Of a stretch of 64,000 nt of DNA, positions 37,184 through 47,034 are shown one piece after another. The translations under genes and the position numbers were made by a program. The DNA lies in NCBI GenBank assembly GCA_947491935.1, contig CANLLF010000002.1, forward strand, positions 682,001 to 746,000, read 5' to 3'. The number at the start of each line of letters is the position of its first letter. The first letter of the stretch is position 1. This DNA is from an uncultured Roseicyclus sp. (GTDB taxonomy: Bacteria; Pseudomonadota; Alphaproteobacteria; Rhodobacterales; Rhodobacteraceae). The notes beneath the pieces were generated by a model. That model was not told the DNA's origin. It saw only the letters and a program-made list of their open reading frames with translations, and did not search any database.

Positions 37184-37795
37184 TCAGAACAAGTCATGTT
37201 CCTTGGCCAGCAAAGCCGCTTGCGTCCGGTTGCTCACGCCCAGTTTCGCGAGAATGTTCTTTACATGAAGCTTGATCGTTACTTCCGCCAGATTGAGGGC
37301 CCGCGCGATTTCCTTATTGGACACGCCGCGGCTCAGAAACTCCAACGTCTCCATTTCTCGGGCGGACAGCCCCTTGAAACTCTCTGGCGTTTCGGGTTTC
37401 GCCTCGGCGAGATCAAAGGGGAAATATTGCTCTCCCGCCAGAACAAACCGGATCGCATTCACCATTGATTTCGCGGTCGCGGATTTCGGGAGGAAGCCGT
37501 TAGCCCCGCGTGCCATCGCCTCGCGCGCGACATCGGGCTTGGCCACGCCAGACATCAAGACCACCTTGATATGGGGATAGCCCTTGATGACGCTTTCCAT
37601 CCCCTCAAGGCCATCCATCCCCGGCATATTGTAATCGAGGATGGCCAGATCGAACGGTATGACGCCTTCCAAAAGCGCGCGCGCCTCGGCCAATCTGTCC
37701 GCAGTTTCCACGTGAAAATCGTCCTGCTGGCCCAGGTAGGCCGCAATGGTGTCACGCACTAGGTCATGATCGTCAGCAACAAGAATATTTGGCAT
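37184..37795 (-). CDS. LuxR-family response regulator
   Basis: A 203-residue NarL/FixJ-type regulator. The receiver (1-120) has Asp54 as phosphoacceptor in AILDYNMPG and the K104 region FLPKSA. The LuxR helix-turn-helix spans about 140-200 (LSAREMETLEFLSRGVSNKE). The long open frame upstream is spurious; the ATG at 37795 begins MPNILVADDH. It is the likely output of the hybrid kinase encoded at 38483, whose HPt domain would pass the phosphate. Confidence 0.93.
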   Translation of the reverse strand: MPNILVADDHDLVRDTIAAYLGQQDDFHVETADRLAEARALLEGVIPFDLAILDYNMPGMDGLEGMESVIKGYPHIKVVLMSGVAKPDVAREAMARGANGFLPKSATAKSMVNAIRFVLAGEQYFPFDLAEAKPETPESFKGLSAREMETLEFLSRGVSNKEIARALNLAEVTIKLHVKNILAKLGVSNRTQAALLAKEHDLF

Positions 37796-37861
37796 AGCGC
37801 AGTCTTTTCCGAAGTTGTCGCAAGTGCCTAGGGGGAAAATGTGGCCCGGGCGAGGCAGACC

Positions 37862-37875: not shown

Positions 37876-37960
37876 TACACCTATCCCAATCCCCGTACGA
37901 TGCGGGCCTGAGCACAGTGTTAAAGGTCGCGGCAACCACGTGATGCAAAAGGTATCTGAC

Positions 37961-38434
37961 ATGCTTCGCTCCTTCGTCTGTGCAGCCCTTCTGGCGATTT
38001 CGATGACATGCCCCGCGATTGCGCAGGATCCGACCGCCCTTCAGATCACGCCGGAAGGTGGCGAGCAGTTGTCGCTCTCTCTCGCGGATCTGGATGCGCT
38101 GGATCAGGTCACGATCACCACCACGACCATCTGGACGGAAGGCGAAGTGACGTTCACCGGGCCATCCCTGACAAGCGTTCTGGATGCCGCCGGTGCCGAG
38201 GGTGCGGACCTGACGCTGACAGCATTGAATGACTACGCCATTGAAATGCCCGCACCCGAAAGCGGCGCGACCTATCCGATCATCGCCACGCGAATGGACG
38301 GCGCGCCAATGTCTGTGCGCGACAAGGGCCCGTTCTGGATAGTTTTTCCGTATGACAGCGATGCGGCTTACCAGACGGAAGAGGTCTATGCGCAAAGCAT
38401 CTGGCAACTGGACCGGATCGAAGTGTTGGAATGA
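37961..38434 (+). CDS. Small periplasmic protein with molybdopterin-oxidoreductase-like fold
   Basis: A 157-residue protein with a signal peptide (MLRSFVCAALLAISMTCPAIAQ). The mature part resembles the C-terminal part of the Oxidored_molyb domain (FTGPSLTSVLDAAG, ALNDYAIEMP, GPFWIVFPYD). The cofactor-binding Cys is absent, so it is unlikely to hold molybdopterin. It sits between a response regulator and its kinase and may be the periplasmic input. ATG at 37961 has AAGGT upstream; 37943 is an alternative. Confidence 0.82.
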   Translation: MLRSFVCAALLAISMTCPAIAQDPTALQITPEGGEQLSLSLADLDALDQVTITTTTIWTEGEVTFTGPSLTSVLDAAGAEGADLTLTALNDYAIEMPAPESGATYPIIATRMDGAPMSVRDKGPFWIVFPYDSDAAYQTEEVYAQSIWQLDRIEVLE

Positions 38435-38482: not shown

Positions 38483-40978
38483 GTGACCGACAAAAAGGGC
38501 CGCAGACGCATTGGCGTGCTGATCGTCGTGCCGCTGCTGATCGTCCTGTTGGGCGTGTTGGGCGGCAATCTGTTGCGGGAGTTGCGGGGCCTCTCCACGG
38601 CGGATGCTGACAATCTGCAATGGACCATCCTTCAGGTCGAAACCGAAATCGCCAACCTCAGCGCGACCTTGAGCGAGGCCATCAACGACCCCTCCCCCGA
38701 TGTCGATGCGGTGCGCCTGCGGGCTGACATCGCGCTCAGCCGCCTGTTGATCGTCGGGCGGGGCGAGGCACGCGATCTGTTTCCCAGTGACGCCGCAGAT
38801 CTTCTGGCTCGGGTGAACGCATATCAGGACGATATGATCGCGGTGCTGGATGCCGACTCAGGCCTGTCAGAGAACGACATAATCGCCCTGCGCGATCTGA
38901 CCCGCGACATCCGCCCGGATATCCGCGACCTTGTTCTTTTGGGGCTCGAGGCTGGAACGGACCGCGCATCGGCGCGCCGTGCCGGCTTTGCACGCCAACT
39001 CGCCGTGACAGGTGCCATCGCGATTGCCGTTATCCTCGGCCTCTCAGCCGTGCTGGTTGTGCTGGATCGCATGCTGAGGCGCGCGGATCAGCGAGATACG
39101 GAACTGCTGAACTCCAGCTCACGGCTTGCCTCGACCGTTACGGCATCGCTCGACGCAATCGTCACAGCGAATGAGGCTGGCGAAATTATCGAATTCAACG
39201 CCTCGGCAGAGCGGATTTTCGGGTGGTCGCGGGAAAAGATCATCGGGCAGAAAATGGATTCAACCATCATCCCCCACCAGCACCGCAAAGCGCACGCCGC
39301 CGGGATGGAGCGTTATCTGGCAACCCATGAACCCCATGTCGTCGATGCCGGGCGGGTGGAGCTTTCGGCCCTGCGCAAATCGGGTGAGGAATTCCCGGTG
39401 GAACTCAACATCACCTCCGTTGAAAGCGCCAATGGAGAGCTCTTTATTGCCTATCTGCGCGACATTTCGCAGCGGAAGATCAACGAGCAGAAGCTGATCG
39501 ACGCGCGCGACAAGGCCGAAGCCATGGACCGTGCGAAGTCGCAGTTCCTGGCCGTGATGAGCCATGAAATGCGCACGCCCCTGAACGGTATCCTCGGCGT
39601 ACTCGACCTGATGCGGCAAACCCGCCTGACAAAGCAGCAGGACCGGTACATGCGCGTCGCCTCTGCCTCGGGCGAAATCCTGCTGGAACATGTGAACGAG
39701 GCGCTCGACATCACGCGGATCGAAATGGGGTCGATGCAGCTGTCGCCACAACCGTTCGAGATGCGGCCTGCGATTGAAAGTGTTTGCGACGTGCTCACCC
39801 CGCTGGCGCAGGAGAAGGGCCTGTCACTGTCGCTGGACTTCGACCCCGGCATGGACCGGATCTTTGACGGGGACGGCGCGCGCATCGGCCAGATCCTGAC
39901 GAACCTCATCGGCAACGCCATCAAATTCACGGAGGATGGCCAGATCGTGGTGTCCGTTTCCGGCATCCACGGCGCTGACCTCACCAATGCGACAATCACC
40001 GTCTCAGATACCGGTCGCGGGATCCCCGAAGACCGGATGGAAGACGTGTTCGAAGATTTCGTCGCACTGGCGCATTCCGAAGGCCGCCAGGCGCGCGGCG
40101 ATGGGCTGGGATTGTCGATCTCGCGCAAAGTGGCGCGGTTGATGGGCGGTGAGCTGTCGGTGCAATCGACCATTGGCCAAGGCAGCGTCTTCACACTGCG
40201 TATCCCCTTGACCCGCGCAGAAGCCGTGGCCGAGGCAGCATCGACCGAGGTTGCCGATGAAAGGCCGGCGGAAACGGCCCAAGCAAAACGCATTCTGGTT
40301 GTCGAGGACAACGCCATCAACCGCTCGGTCCTGAGTGACATGCTGGACCGGCTTGGACACAGCGTGACAGAGGCCTCCGATGGGCTGGATGGTTTGCAAC
40401 AAGCACAAAAAACCGCTTTCGACCTGATCATCATGGATGTCTCGATGCCTGTCATGGATGGCATCGAAACCGCGCGGCGGATCAGGGCGGAGGTCGGGCC
40501 GAACCAAAGAACCCGCATCGTCGGGCTCACGGCCCATGGACGCGAAGAATACCGCGACCGCGCCATCCGGGCGGGCATGGACGGCTTCTTCACTAAGCCC
40601 ATCCGGTTCTCTGCTTTGCATGACGTCGTATCGGCAGATGCACAAACGGCCTTACCTGCCGGACTGGACGCCGAGGTAGTCGTTGATTTGATCGACGTAC
40701 TCGGGCCGCAAAAGGTCAAAGCGACGGCCGATGCGTTCTTTGCGGAAAGTGAATCGCAACTGGACTTGCTGTCTTCGCCCGAAGGCGATGTTGCCGCGAT
40801 CTTGCACAAGATGCGGGGCGGGGCCGCACTCTTGGGGTTGAAATCCCTCGTCGCGCAGATTGATGCGCTGGACGGCGCCACCATGAACCGACAGGCGGTG
40901 GCGGCCCTGTGCGGGGCGATCTCTGCCGGCCGCAAGGATCTGACCGATCGACTTCGGCAGACCGATCCGACCGGCTAG
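38483..40978 (+). CDS. Hybrid sensor histidine kinase (PAS, HisKA, HATPase, REC, HPt)
   Basis: An 831-residue membrane kinase. Helices at about 10-30 and 172-195 flank a 140-residue periplasmic helical domain. A PAS domain covers about 215-335. The phosphorylated histidine is His361 in MSHEMRTPLNG. The ATPase domain follows, then a receiver with Asp652 and an HPt domain with His775. The full relay is in one chain, so the final acceptor is probably the LuxR-type regulator at 37184. Confidence 0.93.
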   Translation: MTDKKGRRRIGVLIVVPLLIVLLGVLGGNLLRELRGLSTADADNLQWTILQVETEIANLSATLSEAINDPSPDVDAVRLRADIALSRLLIVGRGEARDLFPSDAADLLARVNAYQDDMIAVLDADSGLSENDIIALRDLTRDIRPDIRDLVLLGLEAGTDRASARRAGFARQLAVTGAIAIAVILGLSAVLVVLDRMLRRADQRDTELLNSSSRLASTVTASLDAIVTANEAGEIIEFNASAERIFGWSREKIIGQKMDSTIIPHQHRKAHAAGMERYLATHEPHVVDAGRVELSALRKSGEEFPVELNITSVESANGELFIAYLRDISQRKINEQKLIDARDKAEAMDRAKSQFLAVMSHEMRTPLNGILGVLDLMRQTRLTKQQDRYMRVASASGEILLEHVNEALDITRIEMGSMQLSPQPFEMRPAIESVCDVLTPLAQEKGLSLSLDFDPGMDRIFDGDGARIGQILTNLIGNAIKFTEDGQIVVSVSGIHGADLTNATITVSDTGRGIPEDRMEDVFEDFVALAHSEGRQARGDGLGLSISRKVARLMGGELSVQSTIGQGSVFTLRIPLTRAEAVAEAASTEVADERPAETAQAKRILVVEDNAINRSVLSDMLDRLGHSVTEASDGLDGLQQAQKTAFDLIIMDVSMPVMDGIETARRIRAEVGPNQRTRIVGLTAHGREEYRDRAIRAGMDGFFTKPIRFSALHDVVSADAQTALPAGLDAEVVVDLIDVLGPQKVKATADAFFAESESQLDLLSSPEGDVAAILHKMRGGAALLGLKSLVAQIDALDGATMNRQAVAALCGAISAGRKDLTDRLRQTDPTG

Positions 40979-41130: not shown

Positions 41131-42342
41131 ATGACAAAGGAAATTCTGGTAATCGGTGGCGATGGTTTCTGTGGCTGGCCCACGGCCCTGCACCTGTCGA
41201 AACTGGGTCACAACGTCACCATCGTCGATAACCTCTCGCGCCGCTGGATCGACAAGAAAATGGGCGCCGACAGCCTGACACCGATTGCAACCGTGGAAGA
41301 ACGGCTTGAGGCCTGGCACGACGTCACCGGCCTGATGATCAACTTCGAATGCATCGACGTGGCCCGTGAATTTGATCGCCTGACGGGCCTTCTGGCCGCG
41401 CTCAAGCCCGACACGATCATCCACTTCGGCGAACAGCGCGCCGCGCCCTATTCCATGAAGGGCATCGAGGAAAAGCGCTACACCGTCGACAACAATATCT
41501 CGGCCACCCACAACCTGCTGGCCGCCGTGATCGAACTGGGCCTCGACCCGCACATGATCCACCTCGGAACCATGGGTGTCTACGGCTACGACGATGACGG
41601 GATGGAAATCCCCGAAGGGTATCTGCGCGTCTTCATCCCCGGCGACGACAAGCAGATCTTCCAGCGTGACATCCTTTACCCGACCAACCCGGGCAGCGTG
41701 TATCACATGACCAAATCGATGGATCAGCTGCTGTTCCAATTCTACGCCAAGAACGACCGCCTGCGGATCACCGACCTGCACCAGGGCATCGTCTGGGGCA
41801 CGCAAACCGATGAGACCCGTCTGGATGAGCGCCTGATCAACCGGTTCGACTACGATGGTGACTACGGCACCGTGCTCAACCGCTTCCTGATGCAGGCCGC
41901 CGTTGGCCACCCGCTGACCGTCCATGGGACAGGCGGCCAAACCCGCGCGTTCATTCACGTCAAGGACACGGTGAAATGCATCGCCCTAGCGGTCGACAAT
42001 CCGCCGGCCAAGGACGGCAAGGTCAAGATCATGAACCAGATGACCGAGACGCACACGGTGTGCTCGCTCGCCCAACTGGTCGCGGCCAACACCGGCGCCC
42101 AGATCGCGATGGTCGACAATCCTCGCAACGAGGCTGCCGAGAATGGCCTGCGCGTGTCGAACGCGTCGTTCATCGATCTCGGGCTTGAACCGGTCACCCT
42201 GGCCTATGGCCTGATGGAAGAGACGCAGGAGATCGCCTCCAAATACGCGGATCGCTGCATCATGCACATGATCCCATGTGTCTCCACCTGGACGGAAAAC
42301 CAGCGCCCCGGCGTCGTCACCCCCGAAAAGGTCGCTGCCTGA
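41131..42342 (+). CDS. sqdB: UDP-sulfoquinovose synthase (SqdB/SQD1 family)
   Basis: A 403-residue short-chain dehydrogenase-fold enzyme. It matches SQD1 from end to end: GGDGFCGWPTALHLS, HFGEQRAAPYSM, LGTMGVYG and NRFLMQAAVGHPLTVHG. Catalytic-type residues Thr147, Tyr191 and Lys195 are present. The family makes UDP-sulfoquinovose from UDP-glucose and sulfite for sulfolipid. No sqdD or sqdC is here; instead, the gene leads into bcsB-like and GT2 genes. Confidence 0.9.
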   Translation: MTKEILVIGGDGFCGWPTALHLSKLGHNVTIVDNLSRRWIDKKMGADSLTPIATVEERLEAWHDVTGLMINFECIDVAREFDRLTGLLAALKPDTIIHFGEQRAAPYSMKGIEEKRYTVDNNISATHNLLAAVIELGLDPHMIHLGTMGVYGYDDDGMEIPEGYLRVFIPGDDKQIFQRDILYPTNPGSVYHMTKSMDQLLFQFYAKNDRLRITDLHQGIVWGTQTDETRLDERLINRFDYDGDYGTVLNRFLMQAAVGHPLTVHGTGGQTRAFIHVKDTVKCIALAVDNPPAKDGKVKIMNQMTETHTVCSLAQLVAANTGAQIAMVDNPRNEAAENGLRVSNASFIDLGLEPVTLAYGLMEETQEIASKYADRCIMHMIPCVSTWTENQRPGVVTPEKVAA

Positions 42343-42431
42343 CCCGGAATTGAGCACCGGTCAGCCCCGCGTGGAGGTGAGGCTGGCCAACGCTCAACCG
42401 CGCTCGGGCCTTTTGCAGAAAGGCAAGGACG

Positions 42432-43922
42432 ATGAGACTGATTGGCATCGGGCTATTGGCATTTCTACTTGCAGGTTTGGCCCTCCTGCTGGCGCGATCC
42501 GAGATGGTCGGCCAAAGCTTTCGCGCCGCGCGGACCCTAATGGACGGGCCGCAGCTGCGCTTTGAAACGCCCATGGCCGCCGAAGCCCAACGGGGTGCGG
42601 ATCAGGCCATCATCTTGCGGGCGGACGCCTCCGCGCCGCTCGTTCTTTCTGGATTTCCCGCCTATCAGGGCGCTGTGTTTCATATGCCAATCGACGCACG
42701 CCCGACATCTGGATACCTCCAAATCGATGCGACATCGCAAGTGTTGGACGGGGTCGAGGGGGTGCTGCGCATCTCCATCGACAATACCCGCCGGGCTGAG
42801 GTGTTGCTGCATCCAGGTGAGGCGGTGCGCGCCGTACGGATCGAGCTGACCCCAGCCGATATCGCACGGGCGCAGCTGGTCGTCTCTTTCTCGCTGCAGG
42901 GGACGGGTGCCAACCTCGTCTGCACCAACGATCACTCCGTTGAGGCTGTGGTCGAGATCGAGACGACCAGCGCTGTTTTCCTATCCCTCGACGCACCGCT
43001 TGAAACCCCGCGCGACCGCGTCGCGGGGTGGGGCGATCAGGTGCGACTGGAATGGACAGGCACAACCGACACGCTGATCCACGCGGTCAGCGCAATCCGC
43101 CTTGGAACGAACGCCATAATCGTCCCGGAGATGGGCCTAAATGCTCAAGAGGCGCAGGCTGCCATTGATCCCACCGCCGCAGGCGTGTCCCGCCCGCAAT
43201 ACGCATGGTCCGACGCGATGGCGCCCGAGGGCGGTCTGTTAGGCCTCCGCCGCTTCCAGCACAGCCACACGTGGCGTCTGCGCTATGATTTCACGCGGGC
43301 GGAAAACGCGAACCGGCCCAGCGTTTTGGACCTCGCCATGCTTGTGCCTGCCCACCCCCAGGGCGCGGATTGGCAGGTCACGGTCACGCAAAATGGTCGC
43401 CTTCTCAGCCATTTCACCGGCACCGCCGACCAGACGCGGATCGGCGCGCGCATCGCGATCCCCGCCGCCCCTGGCCCCGCCCATACGATTGAGATCACCC
43501 TGACCTCCGCTTTCCTGCGGGAAGGCGAATGCAACGATGGTCCTGAACTCCTCGCCGAAATCCTGCCAGAGACGCAGATCGTGCCCTCCAACATGCTTTT
43601 CGATGATCCCGTCCGCGCACTCAGCCTCGCCTTGACCGCCGATGTCACTGTGTCGACGCCACGAACGCTTAATACTGCTGAGGCAAACGTCGCCGCAGAT
43701 CTTCTCGCGGCCCTCCTGCCCCATACGCCCATCAACGCAGCACAGGATAACGCAACGGTAACAATTCTTCCCCGCGGGGCGCGGATCGCGGTGAGCGAAA
43801 GCCATTGGCTCGTCTTCCGCGATGAACTTGGGGCGCTCTCGGCACAACCCGCCGCAGCGTTCGCGGGGCAAGAGATACAAGCCGTTTCCCTCCTCGTGCA
43901 TATGCCGGAGGACGCGGCATGA
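42432..43922 (+). CDS. BcsB-like periplasmic protein of polysaccharide synthesis
   Basis: A 496-residue protein with an N-terminal membrane or signal segment (residues 4-22). It resembles BcsB with paired carbohydrate-binding-like and ferredoxin-like repeats (VLDGVEGVLRISIDN, then CTNDHS). It is shorter than enterobacterial BcsB and I see no C-terminal membrane helix. BcsB guides the growing glycan through the periplasm. Its stop overlaps the GT2 start by four bases (ATGA). Confidence 0.8.
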   Translation: MRLIGIGLLAFLLAGLALLLARSEMVGQSFRAARTLMDGPQLRFETPMAAEAQRGADQAIILRADASAPLVLSGFPAYQGAVFHMPIDARPTSGYLQIDATSQVLDGVEGVLRISIDNTRRAEVLLHPGEAVRAVRIELTPADIARAQLVVSFSLQGTGANLVCTNDHSVEAVVEIETTSAVFLSLDAPLETPRDRVAGWGDQVRLEWTGTTDTLIHAVSAIRLGTNAIIVPEMGLNAQEAQAAIDPTAAGVSRPQYAWSDAMAPEGGLLGLRRFQHSHTWRLRYDFTRAENANRPSVLDLAMLVPAHPQGADWQVTVTQNGRLLSHFTGTADQTRIGARIAIPAAPGPAHTIEITLTSAFLREGECNDGPELLAEILPETQIVPSNMLFDDPVRALSLALTADVTVSTPRTLNTAEANVAADLLAALLPHTPINAAQDNATVTILPRGARIAVSESHWLVFRDELGALSAQPAAAFAGQEIQAVSLLVHMPEDAA

Positions 43923-45754
43923 GCGAGGCAGAAGACAACCGCGACAAGATCGCCTTCATCTCCGTCGACAGCGCCCCCAAACGGTTCGCAGGCTTCATCC
44001 CGCAATGGCGTGGCCCTGCCATGCTGGCCCTGTTTACCTTAATCGCCGTCGCTCTTCTGCTGGCCGTCAACTCCCCCACCGGGGCGGCGATCTTCCCCAA
44101 CCGCGACCTCGTATTCTCCCCTTACGAGGGGCGGCACTCCATCGCGATCCGCATCTTTCTAATCGCCTTCTATATCAGCGTCGCGGCCTTTTCCTCGGCC
44201 GACTGGAAAGGCAAACTCCTCTTCGGCCTCGACATGGTGCTGACCTTCGCCTTGATCTGCGCCATCTTCGATCTGGCGAACCTGGCGGGCTATATGGCCT
44301 TCGATCTGGCCTTCTCCTTGCATTTCAGCGCTATCGCATCCGGTCTTCTGGGCTTTTGCATCTACTCGTGGAAATTGCTGGAACGTGGTCTGATGCCCGT
44401 GCGCATCCCGGTTGAACACCGCCCCGTCAGCAACCGACGTGCGATCATCCGGCTGCTTGTCACCATCGCCATCGCCATCGCAACGTCGATCTGGGTCACA
44501 TCGTTGCAGCTTGAAATGGTCGAACGCCTGCGCAGCTGGACCCTTCTGGGCGGCATCGGGCCGGGCGTGTTCCTCGTTCTCCCGGTCCTTTTCGCGCAGC
44601 TCTACGCCCTCGCCATCTGGGACGTGAAAACGGCAAAGACTCCCAAGTTCAATCCACCCGTATCGATCATAGTGCCCGCCCATAACGAGGAATACATCAT
44701 CGAAAACACGATCCGGGCCATGGATCGCGCCGCCGCCCATTACGGCGGTGAGGTGCACATCCTAATCATGAACAACAACTCCACCGACGCTACCGAAAAG
44801 ATCGCAAATGCTACGCTCGCCTCCTGCGAGGCAGCCTTGGGTCGCGTGATCAACGTTCCAAAACCCGGCAAATCCAATGCCTTGAACGCGGGCCTCGATG
44901 CGGCAGAGACCGAATTCCTGGTGCGCGTTGATGCCGACACGTTGGTTGGGCAAGACAACCTCACCCGCGCCATGCCCTACTTTACGAACCCCGCCGTCGG
45001 CGTTGTCGGCGGCGTCCCGGTGCCGCCCGGTGGCGCGCTCTTCGACCGCGCCCGGCTTCTGGAGGTTCTAGTCAAACACGGCTTTTATTCCGTCGCCATG
45101 GGCGCGGTGAATGGGGTGGTCGGCATTCCCGGCATGTTCGTGGTCTACCGCACCGAACACCCGCGCTACCTCGGCGGCTTCGTGGAGGGGATGAACGGCG
45201 AAGACACCGATGTGTCCCTGCGGATCGGAGAGCTTGGCTACCATTCCGTGGTCGATCCCAAGATCCGCTACATCTCTGAAGTACCTTCGGCCTATGAGCA
45301 CATGCGCGAACAGAGGATGCGTTGGTTCAGGTCGATCTACCACATCTCATCGCGCTGCCGGGACTTGATCTACTCCGGCAACGGCTCGCTCAGAGGCAAG
45401 ATCATCCTGCCCTACATGCTGGTCAATTCCGCCCGACGCGCGATGCTCGTCCCGTTAATCATTTACGGTGCGTTGGAATGCATCTTCGCTTTCAACCCCA
45501 ACAGCCCCATCGTGTGGCAAGCCGTAGTGGCTGTCACAACCGGCGCACCTGCGATCATGGCCGTGATTGCATCGCTTCTGAACGGCGTCCCTAAAGGCAT
45601 CCTCGCCTTGCCGGAATACCTGATCTTCCGCGTCCTGCGCGCCTATTTCACACTTGAGTCTATGATGAGCATCCTGGTCGGCCATGACGGAGAAGATCTC
45701 GAATTAGCGACCAAGAAGAACGTCGTACCAACAGGCCCGGTTCGCGTGGCATGA
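43919..45754 (+). CDS. Processive membrane glycosyltransferase, family 2 (cellulose/hyaluronan synthase-like)
   Basis: A 611-residue membrane protein. Helices at the N-terminus (about residues 34-55, 78-95, 100-120, 125-145, 178-198, 210-230) precede the GT2 domain (about 240-480). The synthase signature is intact: DAD (338-340), ED at 428-429 and QRMRW (465-469). Further helices follow. It would polymerise and extrude a glycan. No c-di-GMP-binding PilZ domain is visible. It is coupled to the BcsB-like gene. Confidence 0.88.
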   Translation: MSEAEDNRDKIAFISVDSAPKRFAGFIPQWRGPAMLALFTLIAVALLLAVNSPTGAAIFPNRDLVFSPYEGRHSIAIRIFLIAFYISVAAFSSADWKGKLLFGLDMVLTFALICAIFDLANLAGYMAFDLAFSLHFSAIASGLLGFCIYSWKLLERGLMPVRIPVEHRPVSNRRAIIRLLVTIAIAIATSIWVTSLQLEMVERLRSWTLLGGIGPGVFLVLPVLFAQLYALAIWDVKTAKTPKFNPPVSIIVPAHNEEYIIENTIRAMDRAAAHYGGEVHILIMNNNSTDATEKIANATLASCEAALGRVINVPKPGKSNALNAGLDAAETEFLVRVDADTLVGQDNLTRAMPYFTNPAVGVVGGVPVPPGGALFDRARLLEVLVKHGFYSVAMGAVNGVVGIPGMFVVYRTEHPRYLGGFVEGMNGEDTDVSLRIGELGYHSVVDPKIRYISEVPSAYEHMREQRMRWFRSIYHISSRCRDLIYSGNGSLRGKIILPYMLVNSARRAMLVPLIIYGALECIFAFNPNSPIVWQAVVAVTTGAPAIMAVIASLLNGVPKGILALPEYLIFRVLRAYFTLESMMSILVGHDGEDLELATKKNVVPTGPVRVA

Positions 45755-46065: not shown

Positions 46066-46698
46066 CTAGATTTCAATGGCCTCGGCTATCGCAAGCGCAT
46101 CCTCCAGCTCGACGCCCAGGTACCTGACCGTACTGTCCATCTTCGTGTGTCCAAGCAGCAACTGAACCGCCCGCAAGTTGCCTGTCTTCTTGTAGATCTG
46201 GGTCACCTTTGTTCGCCTCATCGAATGCGTGCCATACGCACTCGCTTCTAGACCGATTGATGTGACCCAATCGCGGACAATCCGCGCATACTGGCGTGTC
46301 GAAATATGCAGGCGCTCGTGGAAGCGGCCAGGCCAGAGATACTCTGAGCCGACCATAAGCTCATCTTCCATCCATTTCTCGACTGAAGCGCGTGTGCCCT
46401 CGGAAATCTCGAAGCGAACAGGTTTCTGGGTTTTGCTTTGCAGCACTGAAGCCCGTTCTTTGATCTGACCAGACGCCATGACGTCGACGACTTTCATTTT
46501 CACCAGATCACAGCCGCGCAGCTTGCTGTCGATCGCCATGTTGAACAGTGCGAGGTCGCGATGGTTTTCGGCCAATTCAAGTCGAACTCGGATTGCCCAG
46601 ACATGCTTTGGTTTCAATGGTCGCTTTTGTCCGACGATGCGGCCCTTGTTCCAAGCAGGACGAAGCGCGCGAATGACAGGTAGGTTTGGTGTTTCCAT
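46066..46698 (-). CDS. Short tyrosine recombinase/integrase
   Basis: A 210-residue catalytic-domain-only recombinase. The active-site set is complete: Arg61, Lys89, His158-x-x-Arg161 (HSMR), His184 (LLGHTKMDST) and the nucleophile Tyr193. There is no N-terminal core-binding domain, as in FimB-type integrases. The start METPNLPVIR at 46698 is preferred over a longer frame. It marks a likely mobile or invertible region. Confidence 0.87.
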   Translation of the reverse strand: METPNLPVIRALRPAWNKGRIVGQKRPLKPKHVWAIRVRLELAENHRDLALFNMAIDSKLRGCDLVKMKVVDVMASGQIKERASVLQSKTQKPVRFEISEGTRASVEKWMEDELMVGSEYLWPGRFHERLHISTRQYARIVRDWVTSIGLEASAYGTHSMRRTKVTQIYKKTGNLRAVQLLLGHTKMDSTVRYLGVELEDALAIAEAIEI

Positions 46699-47034
46699 GA
46701 CTGATCCTCCGATCCGCCATGCCCTCCACAACGACAACCCGACGTTGACCAGGCAGCATATCACGGGATTGCTGCGCTGCCTCCGAGGTCGGGTTTGAGC
46801 CCATACCTCCCGAATGCTGCGCTCTGCTCAAATAGCGGCAATGCGCCACGAGCCGACATCTAAGTCTTGGGAGGTTTGCGGCCAGTAAGCGGTGATGGAG
46901 AGTAGTCTCAGATAATCCTCTAGCGAAATCAGTCTACAATAGAGAGTATGGCAATCGGGCTGCTTGGATTGCCGGAACAAGGTTCTCTAGAGGACCTCGA
47001 TTGAGGCCAGCGATGATGCTGGCCCCTTATCAAG
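46699..47034. other. Intergenic stretch after the integrase start
   Basis: No convincing gene on either strand. It contains a near palindrome centred on CTCTAGAG near 46987 and a hairpin at 47005-47024. Confidence 0.5.
47005..47024 (-). terminator. Hairpin after the SRPBCC operon
   Basis: GGCCAGC pairs with GCTGGCC around GATGAT. It is 11 bases past the minus-strand stop at 47035 and probably ends that operon, although no T run follows. Confidence 0.5.

Follow-up and report, generated by a model that had tools for sequence, protein, structure and literature searches.

The stretch of DNA analysed here, a window of 64,000 nucleotides (positions 682,001-746,000) on contig CANLLF010000002.1 of an uncultured Roseicyclus sp. 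(Rhodobacteraceae), carries a compact operon that encodes an SqdB-like uridine diphosphate (UDP)-sulfoquinovose synthase, a BcsB-like periplasmic protein and a membrane glycosyltransferase of family 2 (GT2; Table 1). A gap of 89 bp separates sqdB from the BcsB-like gene, and the open reading frames (ORFs) of the BcsB-like protein and the GT2 overlap by 4 bp. The initial annotation of this stretch had described the three genes as same-strand neighbours with a synthase-type GT2, and all three were indeed found as intact ORFs on the forward strand.

Table 1 The sqdB operon and its flanking genes in the window.
Feature	Position	Strand	Remarks
SqdB-like UDP-sulfoquinovose synthase, 403 amino acids	41131-42342	+	intact ORF
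BcsB-like periplasmic protein, 496 amino acids	42432-43922	+	intact ORF
Membrane GT2 synthase, 611 amino acids	43919-45754	+	intact ORF
Hybrid histidine kinase (PAS, HisKA, HATPase, receiver)	38483-40978	+	Pfam; directly upstream of the operon
Small protein, weak Oxidored_molyb match	37943-38434	+	Pfam, 26 bits against a cut-off of 24; flanking
LuxR-type response regulator	37184-37801	-	Pfam Response_reg and GerE; flanking
Phage_integrase family gene	46066-46764	-	immediately 3' of the operon

The closest relative of the window SqdB in the PDB is Arabidopsis SQD1 (1qrr), matched with an E-value of 9.4e-96 over residues 3-387 of 403. For comparison across genomes we fetched 80 sqdB loci, the best 80 of 480 that matched patterns taken from the window SqdB and hence a sample biased to close kin. 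The catalytic triad described for SQD1 and Agl3, [ST]MG-xn-Yx3K (PMC8987622; this and the papers cited below are represented by excerpts), agrees with T147-M148-G149, Y191 and K195 of the window protein, residues that are identical in 80 of 80 fetched relatives. E101-Q102-R103 is identical in all 78 relatives that are covered there, His occupies position 98 in 73 of them and Gln in the other 5, and position 100 is either Gly or Ala, a variation that explains why a first GEQR pattern recovered just 32 of the 80 SqdBs; a second pattern matched none. In Agl3, activity is lost on changing His95, Arg101, Met145, Tyr182 or Lys186 and is impaired by a change of Glu147 (PMC4388408). The counterpart of Glu147 is Val in the window SqdB and in all 80 relatives, including those from the 20 loci at which sqdB is linked to SqdD. 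The top NCBIfam model, that of UDP-sulfoquinovose synthase (NF041015), scores 320 bits on the window protein, under its cut-off of 575 bits. We set aside the notion that this low score signals another function, since eight SqdBs scored on the model, among them the window's and two from canonical sqdBDC sulfolipid loci, all reach 320-337 bits, and the cut-off thus leaves out these relatives too. On grounds of homology we take the window SqdB as a true UDP-sulfoquinovose synthase.

The 611-residue product of the third gene contains GT2 domains according to Pfam, with about six hydrophobic helices on their N-terminal side and several on their C-terminal side. This multi-helix membrane protein holds the D-x-D, E-D and QxxRW motifs of processive GT2 enzymes as D338-A339-D340, E428-D429 and Q465-R466-x-R468-W469, and none of these residues varies among the 25 sequences aligned (the window and 24 of the 41 GT2-bearing loci), confirming the intact DAD/ED/QRMRW set that had been noted at the outset. 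The top NCBIfam model is PgaC, with 77.8 bits against a cut-off of 422.3, while CelA reaches 17.7 bits against 699.1, and Pfam gave no PilZ match in the protein. A structural model of the GT2, with a predicted local distance difference test (pLDDT) score of 84, matched PcManGT first and then hyaluronan and cellulose synthases. In Marinicaulis, the GT2 ORF extends C-terminally by about 312 amino acids (L047:14770-15705), a tail for which no Pfam or PDB relative was found and which may stem from a fusion or from faulty assembly.

The BcsB-like window protein has no Pfam or NCBIfam match of its own, and sequence comparison with the PDB gave no E-value below 0.13. In an alignment of 32 BcsB-like proteins (31 of the 38 loci with such a match, and the window), 26 members match Pfam BcsB at E<=1, the best with 7.1e-10; the window protein is not among these. 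Its AlphaFold2 model (pLDDT 86) was compared with the PDB using Foldseek, and the 22 top matches are BcsB or cellulose-synthase-complex chains with E-values from 1.7e-17 to 1.7e-11, the next matches listed being unrelated beta-rich proteins with template modelling (TM) scores of 0.23 or less. The predicted structure of the protein is thus that of the BcsB fold. Its single hydrophobic segment spans residues 1-27 and forms an N-terminal helix, with none at the C-terminus, whereas BcsB carries a C-terminal membrane anchor.

The search for the three-gene order in other genomes that the initial annotation had called for revealed the arrangement sqdB, BcsB-like gene, GT2 gene at 37 of the 80 fetched loci. 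A further four show sqdB and GT2 with no BcsB-like match, SqdD and SqdC adjoin sqdB at 20, and 19 have none of these arrangements, one of them (L056) with a weak BcsB-like match and no GT2. GT2 and SqdD were together at one locus in 0 of 80 cases. Among the fetched loci, L009 is essentially the window itself, and the GT2 match of L033 spans only 249 amino acids. Cultured carriers of the trio include Tateyamaria omphalii DP5N21-5 and Ruegeria atlantica (L031, L028 and L032). Furthermore, we surveyed 295 genomes of the family, drawn by taxonomy. The GT2 (E<=1e-60) is present in 13 of these, and all 13 genes adjoin an sqdB, the matched stretches lying 57 bp to 2.2 kb apart, which rules out chance adjacency of the sqdB, GT2 and BcsB-like genes. 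An sqdB-like gene (E<=1e-60) occurs in 73 of the genomes, in some with only 39-42% identity, and SqdD (E<=1e-10) in 45; BcsB-like matches at E<=1e-68 were obtained in 12, all of them within the 13 that have the GT2, and weak ones (7e-11 to 3e-7) in three other genomes, G041, G116 and G135. Across the class, the GT2 (E<=1e-50) was found in three of 385 genomes, namely the window's own, G238 and G548, the last of which belongs to another family and contains the whole trio. In G101 and G066, a porin-like, a BcsB-like and a GT2 gene follow one another in this order and run toward an sqdB on the opposite strand, on which the BcsB-like and GT2 genes converge at a distance of 57-82 bp by matched stretches, indicating that the linkage survives rearrangement.

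This conserved linkage strongly supports a functional link, as predicted from the gene sequences, between UDP-sulfoquinovose and the GT2/BcsB-like pair. The initial annotation had gone further and proposed that UDP-sulfoquinovose is polymerised or added to a secreted polymer: the link to the pair stands, whereas polymerisation and secretion go beyond what the sequence establishes. One alternative has the GT2 and the BcsB-like protein make a polymer of some other sugar, with UDP-sulfoquinovose directed to a separate acceptor (side groups, lipopolysaccharide or, via a GT4 enzyme, lipid) and adjacency reflecting co-regulation only. In its favour, 18 of the 73 sqdB genomes in the family survey have neither SqdD nor GT2, so that other users of UDP-sulfoquinovose probably exist. 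Against such a division of labour, however, every GT2 of this type found at E<=1e-60 adjoins an sqdB, and no other glycosyltransferase recurs beside the trio among the neighbours identified; we consider this alternative unlikely. Other contexts of sqdB were encountered among the fetched loci. In two from Granulosicoccaceae, which lack SqdD, the gene after sqdB encodes 878 (L054) or 910 amino acids (L059); both proteins fall into one cluster, and that of L054 contains a GT4-type domain. A small protein that weakly matches GT2 follows as well. In six loci, L066, L070, L074 and L075 among them, an sqdB of the Caulobacteraceae type is followed by a member of family F27, which in L074 matches NAD-dependent epimerases.

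We turned to the question of sulfolipid synthesis in the window's own genome, which encodes one SqdB. An sqdC or sqdD elsewhere in that genome had been named from the start as a finding that would speak against a glycan; no SqdD was detected at E<=1e-10 and the best SqdC-like match reaches 33.3 bits, so that the sqdBDC sulfolipid route does not explain the presence of sqdB (GT4 enzymes of the SQD2/SqdX type were not searched for). A different possibility is that the GT2 is itself a sulfolipid synthase that transfers sulfoquinovose to diacylglycerol, replacing SqdD/SqdC or SQD2. Some membrane glycosyltransferases do make glycolipids, and in the family survey 43 of the 73 sqdB genomes have SqdD, compared with only one of the 13 GT2 genomes, as replacement would predict. 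Yet genome G053 (L100, L101) and isolate YR2-508-J (L038, L086) each have both sqdBDC and the GT2 operon, on separate contigs. If these assemblies are pure, this argues against the GT2 as a mere substitute for SqdD and gives the operon a task beyond that of sqdBDC. A BcsB-fold partner in 12 of the 13 GT2 genomes and the presence of hyaluronan and cellulose synthases among the best fold matches likewise argue against a lipid acceptor, and we regard a sulfolipid synthase as rather improbable.

The SqdB phylogeny (79 sequences, midpoint root; L009 and L051 left out) contains one starred branch (99/97) that separates the 41 GT2-linked rows, together with L049 and L050, from the rest. As L049 and L050 lie inside this branch, the GT2-linkage label needs two changes on the tree. 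The SqdD-linked SqdBs form another starred group, and SqdD is present in all 20 rows of that clade. Pairwise distances of the three operon proteins over 35 loci (L009 and L033 left out) are correlated with a Mantel r of 0.90-0.95, a value that includes shared species history. Octadecabacter algicola D2-3 carries two such operons, L019 and L035, which are 73% identical to each other in SqdB and 66% in GT2. L019 resembles L021 from another Octadecabacter (SqdB 96%, GT2 94% identical), and L035 is nearer to Flavimaricola L040 (88% and 77%). Apart from the window's own genome, two of 12 genomes of the same genus have the BcsB-like gene, and the operon is accessory within the genus.

In order to rationalise these observations on the molecular level, we propose that the operon probably provides a dedicated route to a sulfoquinovose-containing glycan that is passed through the inner membrane. 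Judging from its homologues, SqdB would combine UDP-glucose with sulfite in the cytosol to give UDP-sulfoquinovose. Fold, motifs and partner suggest that the GT2 would elongate a glycan using UDP-sulfoquinovose, alone or with another UDP-sugar, and that the chain would pass through the enzyme's own membrane channel, as in cellulose and hyaluronan synthases. The BcsB-like protein, anchored by its N-terminal helix, may then take up the chain in the periplasm, as its predicted fold implies, and the product would be anionic. More specifically, and only tentatively, the membrane GT2 and its BcsB-fold partner could constitute a polysulfoquinovose synthase of marine alphaproteobacteria, with a cellulose-like homo- or copolymer as product whose repeating sugar bears a sulfonate at C6.

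Several points weigh against a glycan route of this kind. The product is predicted from gene content. In both the sequence and the fold comparison with the PDB, the GT2 matches the mannosyltransferase PcManGT best and not a polymer synthase, which cautions against assuming a polymer, and a QxxRW motif by itself does not prove processivity. TM-scores between the BcsB-like model and BcsB are just 0.39-0.47, the match being better per domain than over the entire chain, and as many as 207 PDB chains match this model within E 0.001, including unrelated beta-rich proteins. Five places (L037, L042, L043, L045 and G238) have sqdB and GT2 with no BcsB-like match, so the partner is dispensable in some lineages. 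In a scan that covered part of the neighbouring genes, the recurrent ones identified included no outer-membrane exporter, endoglucanase or BcsC-like gene, and the assembly of G053 or of YR2-508-J may be mixed.

In the same five places a porin-like gene precedes sqdB-GT2, with Pfam Porin_4 detected in those of L037, L045 and G238; the porin-like gene of G101 has no Pfam or PDB match and owes its label to 49% identity to the L045 porin. We considered this neighbour as a possible exit pore and set it aside, as it occurs in only seven places, the five above and G101 and G066. That no conserved outer-membrane exporter was seen would fit a periplasmic anionic glucan of the osmoregulated kind (OpgGH-like) that is not secreted, and one of the 32 BcsB-like members weakly matches MdoG (E 0.015). 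The partner has the BcsB fold, however, and a porin-like gene lies beside operon genes in the seven places, though porins are common; a periplasmic glucan seems very unlikely to us.

The genes upstream of the operon (Table 1) recur to some extent: the hybrid-kinase family (F3) is represented at 26 of the 80 fetched sqdB loci, and the families of the small Oxidored_molyb-type protein (F6) and of the LuxR-type regulator (F5) at 23 each. At L038, regulator, Oxidored_molyb protein and kinase are inverted and lie on the opposite side of the operon. The two-component module was rejected as a part of the system because it occurs without the operon in the same-genus genomes G002 and G006, which leaves it as only a flanking candidate regulator. 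The upstream hybrid kinase is a possible regulator of the operon; it is conjecture that the upstream regulators drive the operon or act as sensors of sulfite. We also sought a shared DNA motif in 40 upstream regions, where the best 9-mer occurs in 17. On the 3' side, a 94% identical copy of the window's integrase gene follows the GT2 gene of L014, from another genus; the BcsB-like protein of L014 is only about 45% identical to the window's. An RTX calcium-binding protein is encoded 3' of the operon in six Tateyamaria loci (L018, L022, L026, L029, L030 and L031), and at L041 the trio is preceded by a gene of the sulfate permease type (L041:2523-4685) whose product has STAS and cNMP domains.

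With BcsA-BcsB the window shares a membrane GT2 with D-x-D, E-D and QxxRW and a periplasmic partner of the BcsB fold, but its GT2 has no PilZ match, the partner's only helix is N-terminal, the genes are linked to sqdB, and Pfam BcsB finds no match in the window's genome. Hyaluronan synthase, a membrane GT2 consisting of a single chain, uses UDP-N-acetylglucosamine and UDP-glucuronic acid to build an anionic polymer and needs no BcsB partner; it is among the best fold matches of the window GT2, which differs in being paired with a BcsB-like protein. The SqdB is of the same family as that of the alphaproteobacterial sqdBDC sulfolipid operon, with 61-65% identity to the 20 SqdD-linked loci, but stands on a separate branch of the tree, and the BcsB-like protein and GT2 take the place of SqdD (GT8) and SqdC. 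UDP-sulfoquinovose destined for a glycan and not a lipid, as we propose here from genes alone, has a precedent in Agl3 of Sulfolobus N-glycosylation (PMC4388408). The product of that pathway is a short N-glycan on protein (PMC9549778), unlike that proposed for the window operon, and the excerpts mention no GT2/BcsB pair. In the portions of the open-access literature covered, we recognised no description of a bacterial sulfoquinovose polymer or of an sqdB-BcsB-GT2 operon. UDP-sulfoquinovose synthase does appear in a figure legend about the synthesis of sugars for cyanobacterial exopolysaccharide (PMC12555021), and the idea of sulfoquinovose in such material is thus not wholly new. The parts of the operon are of known kinds; their combination is new.

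Taken together, the position of sqdB beside a cellulose-synthase-like enzyme, usually with a periplasmic partner, in this marine bacterium and many relatives suggests an unrecognised sulfoquinovose glycan rather than the usual sulfolipid. sqdB has been treated as a gene of sulfolipid synthesis, in marine environmental work too (PMC4796936), and should the present branch of sqdB serve a glycan, studies of that kind can misassign marine bacterial sqdB. The trio offers a compact three-gene target for direct biochemistry and, if our proposal is true, would make a new sulfonated bacterial glycan that feeds the sea's pool of sulfoquinovose.

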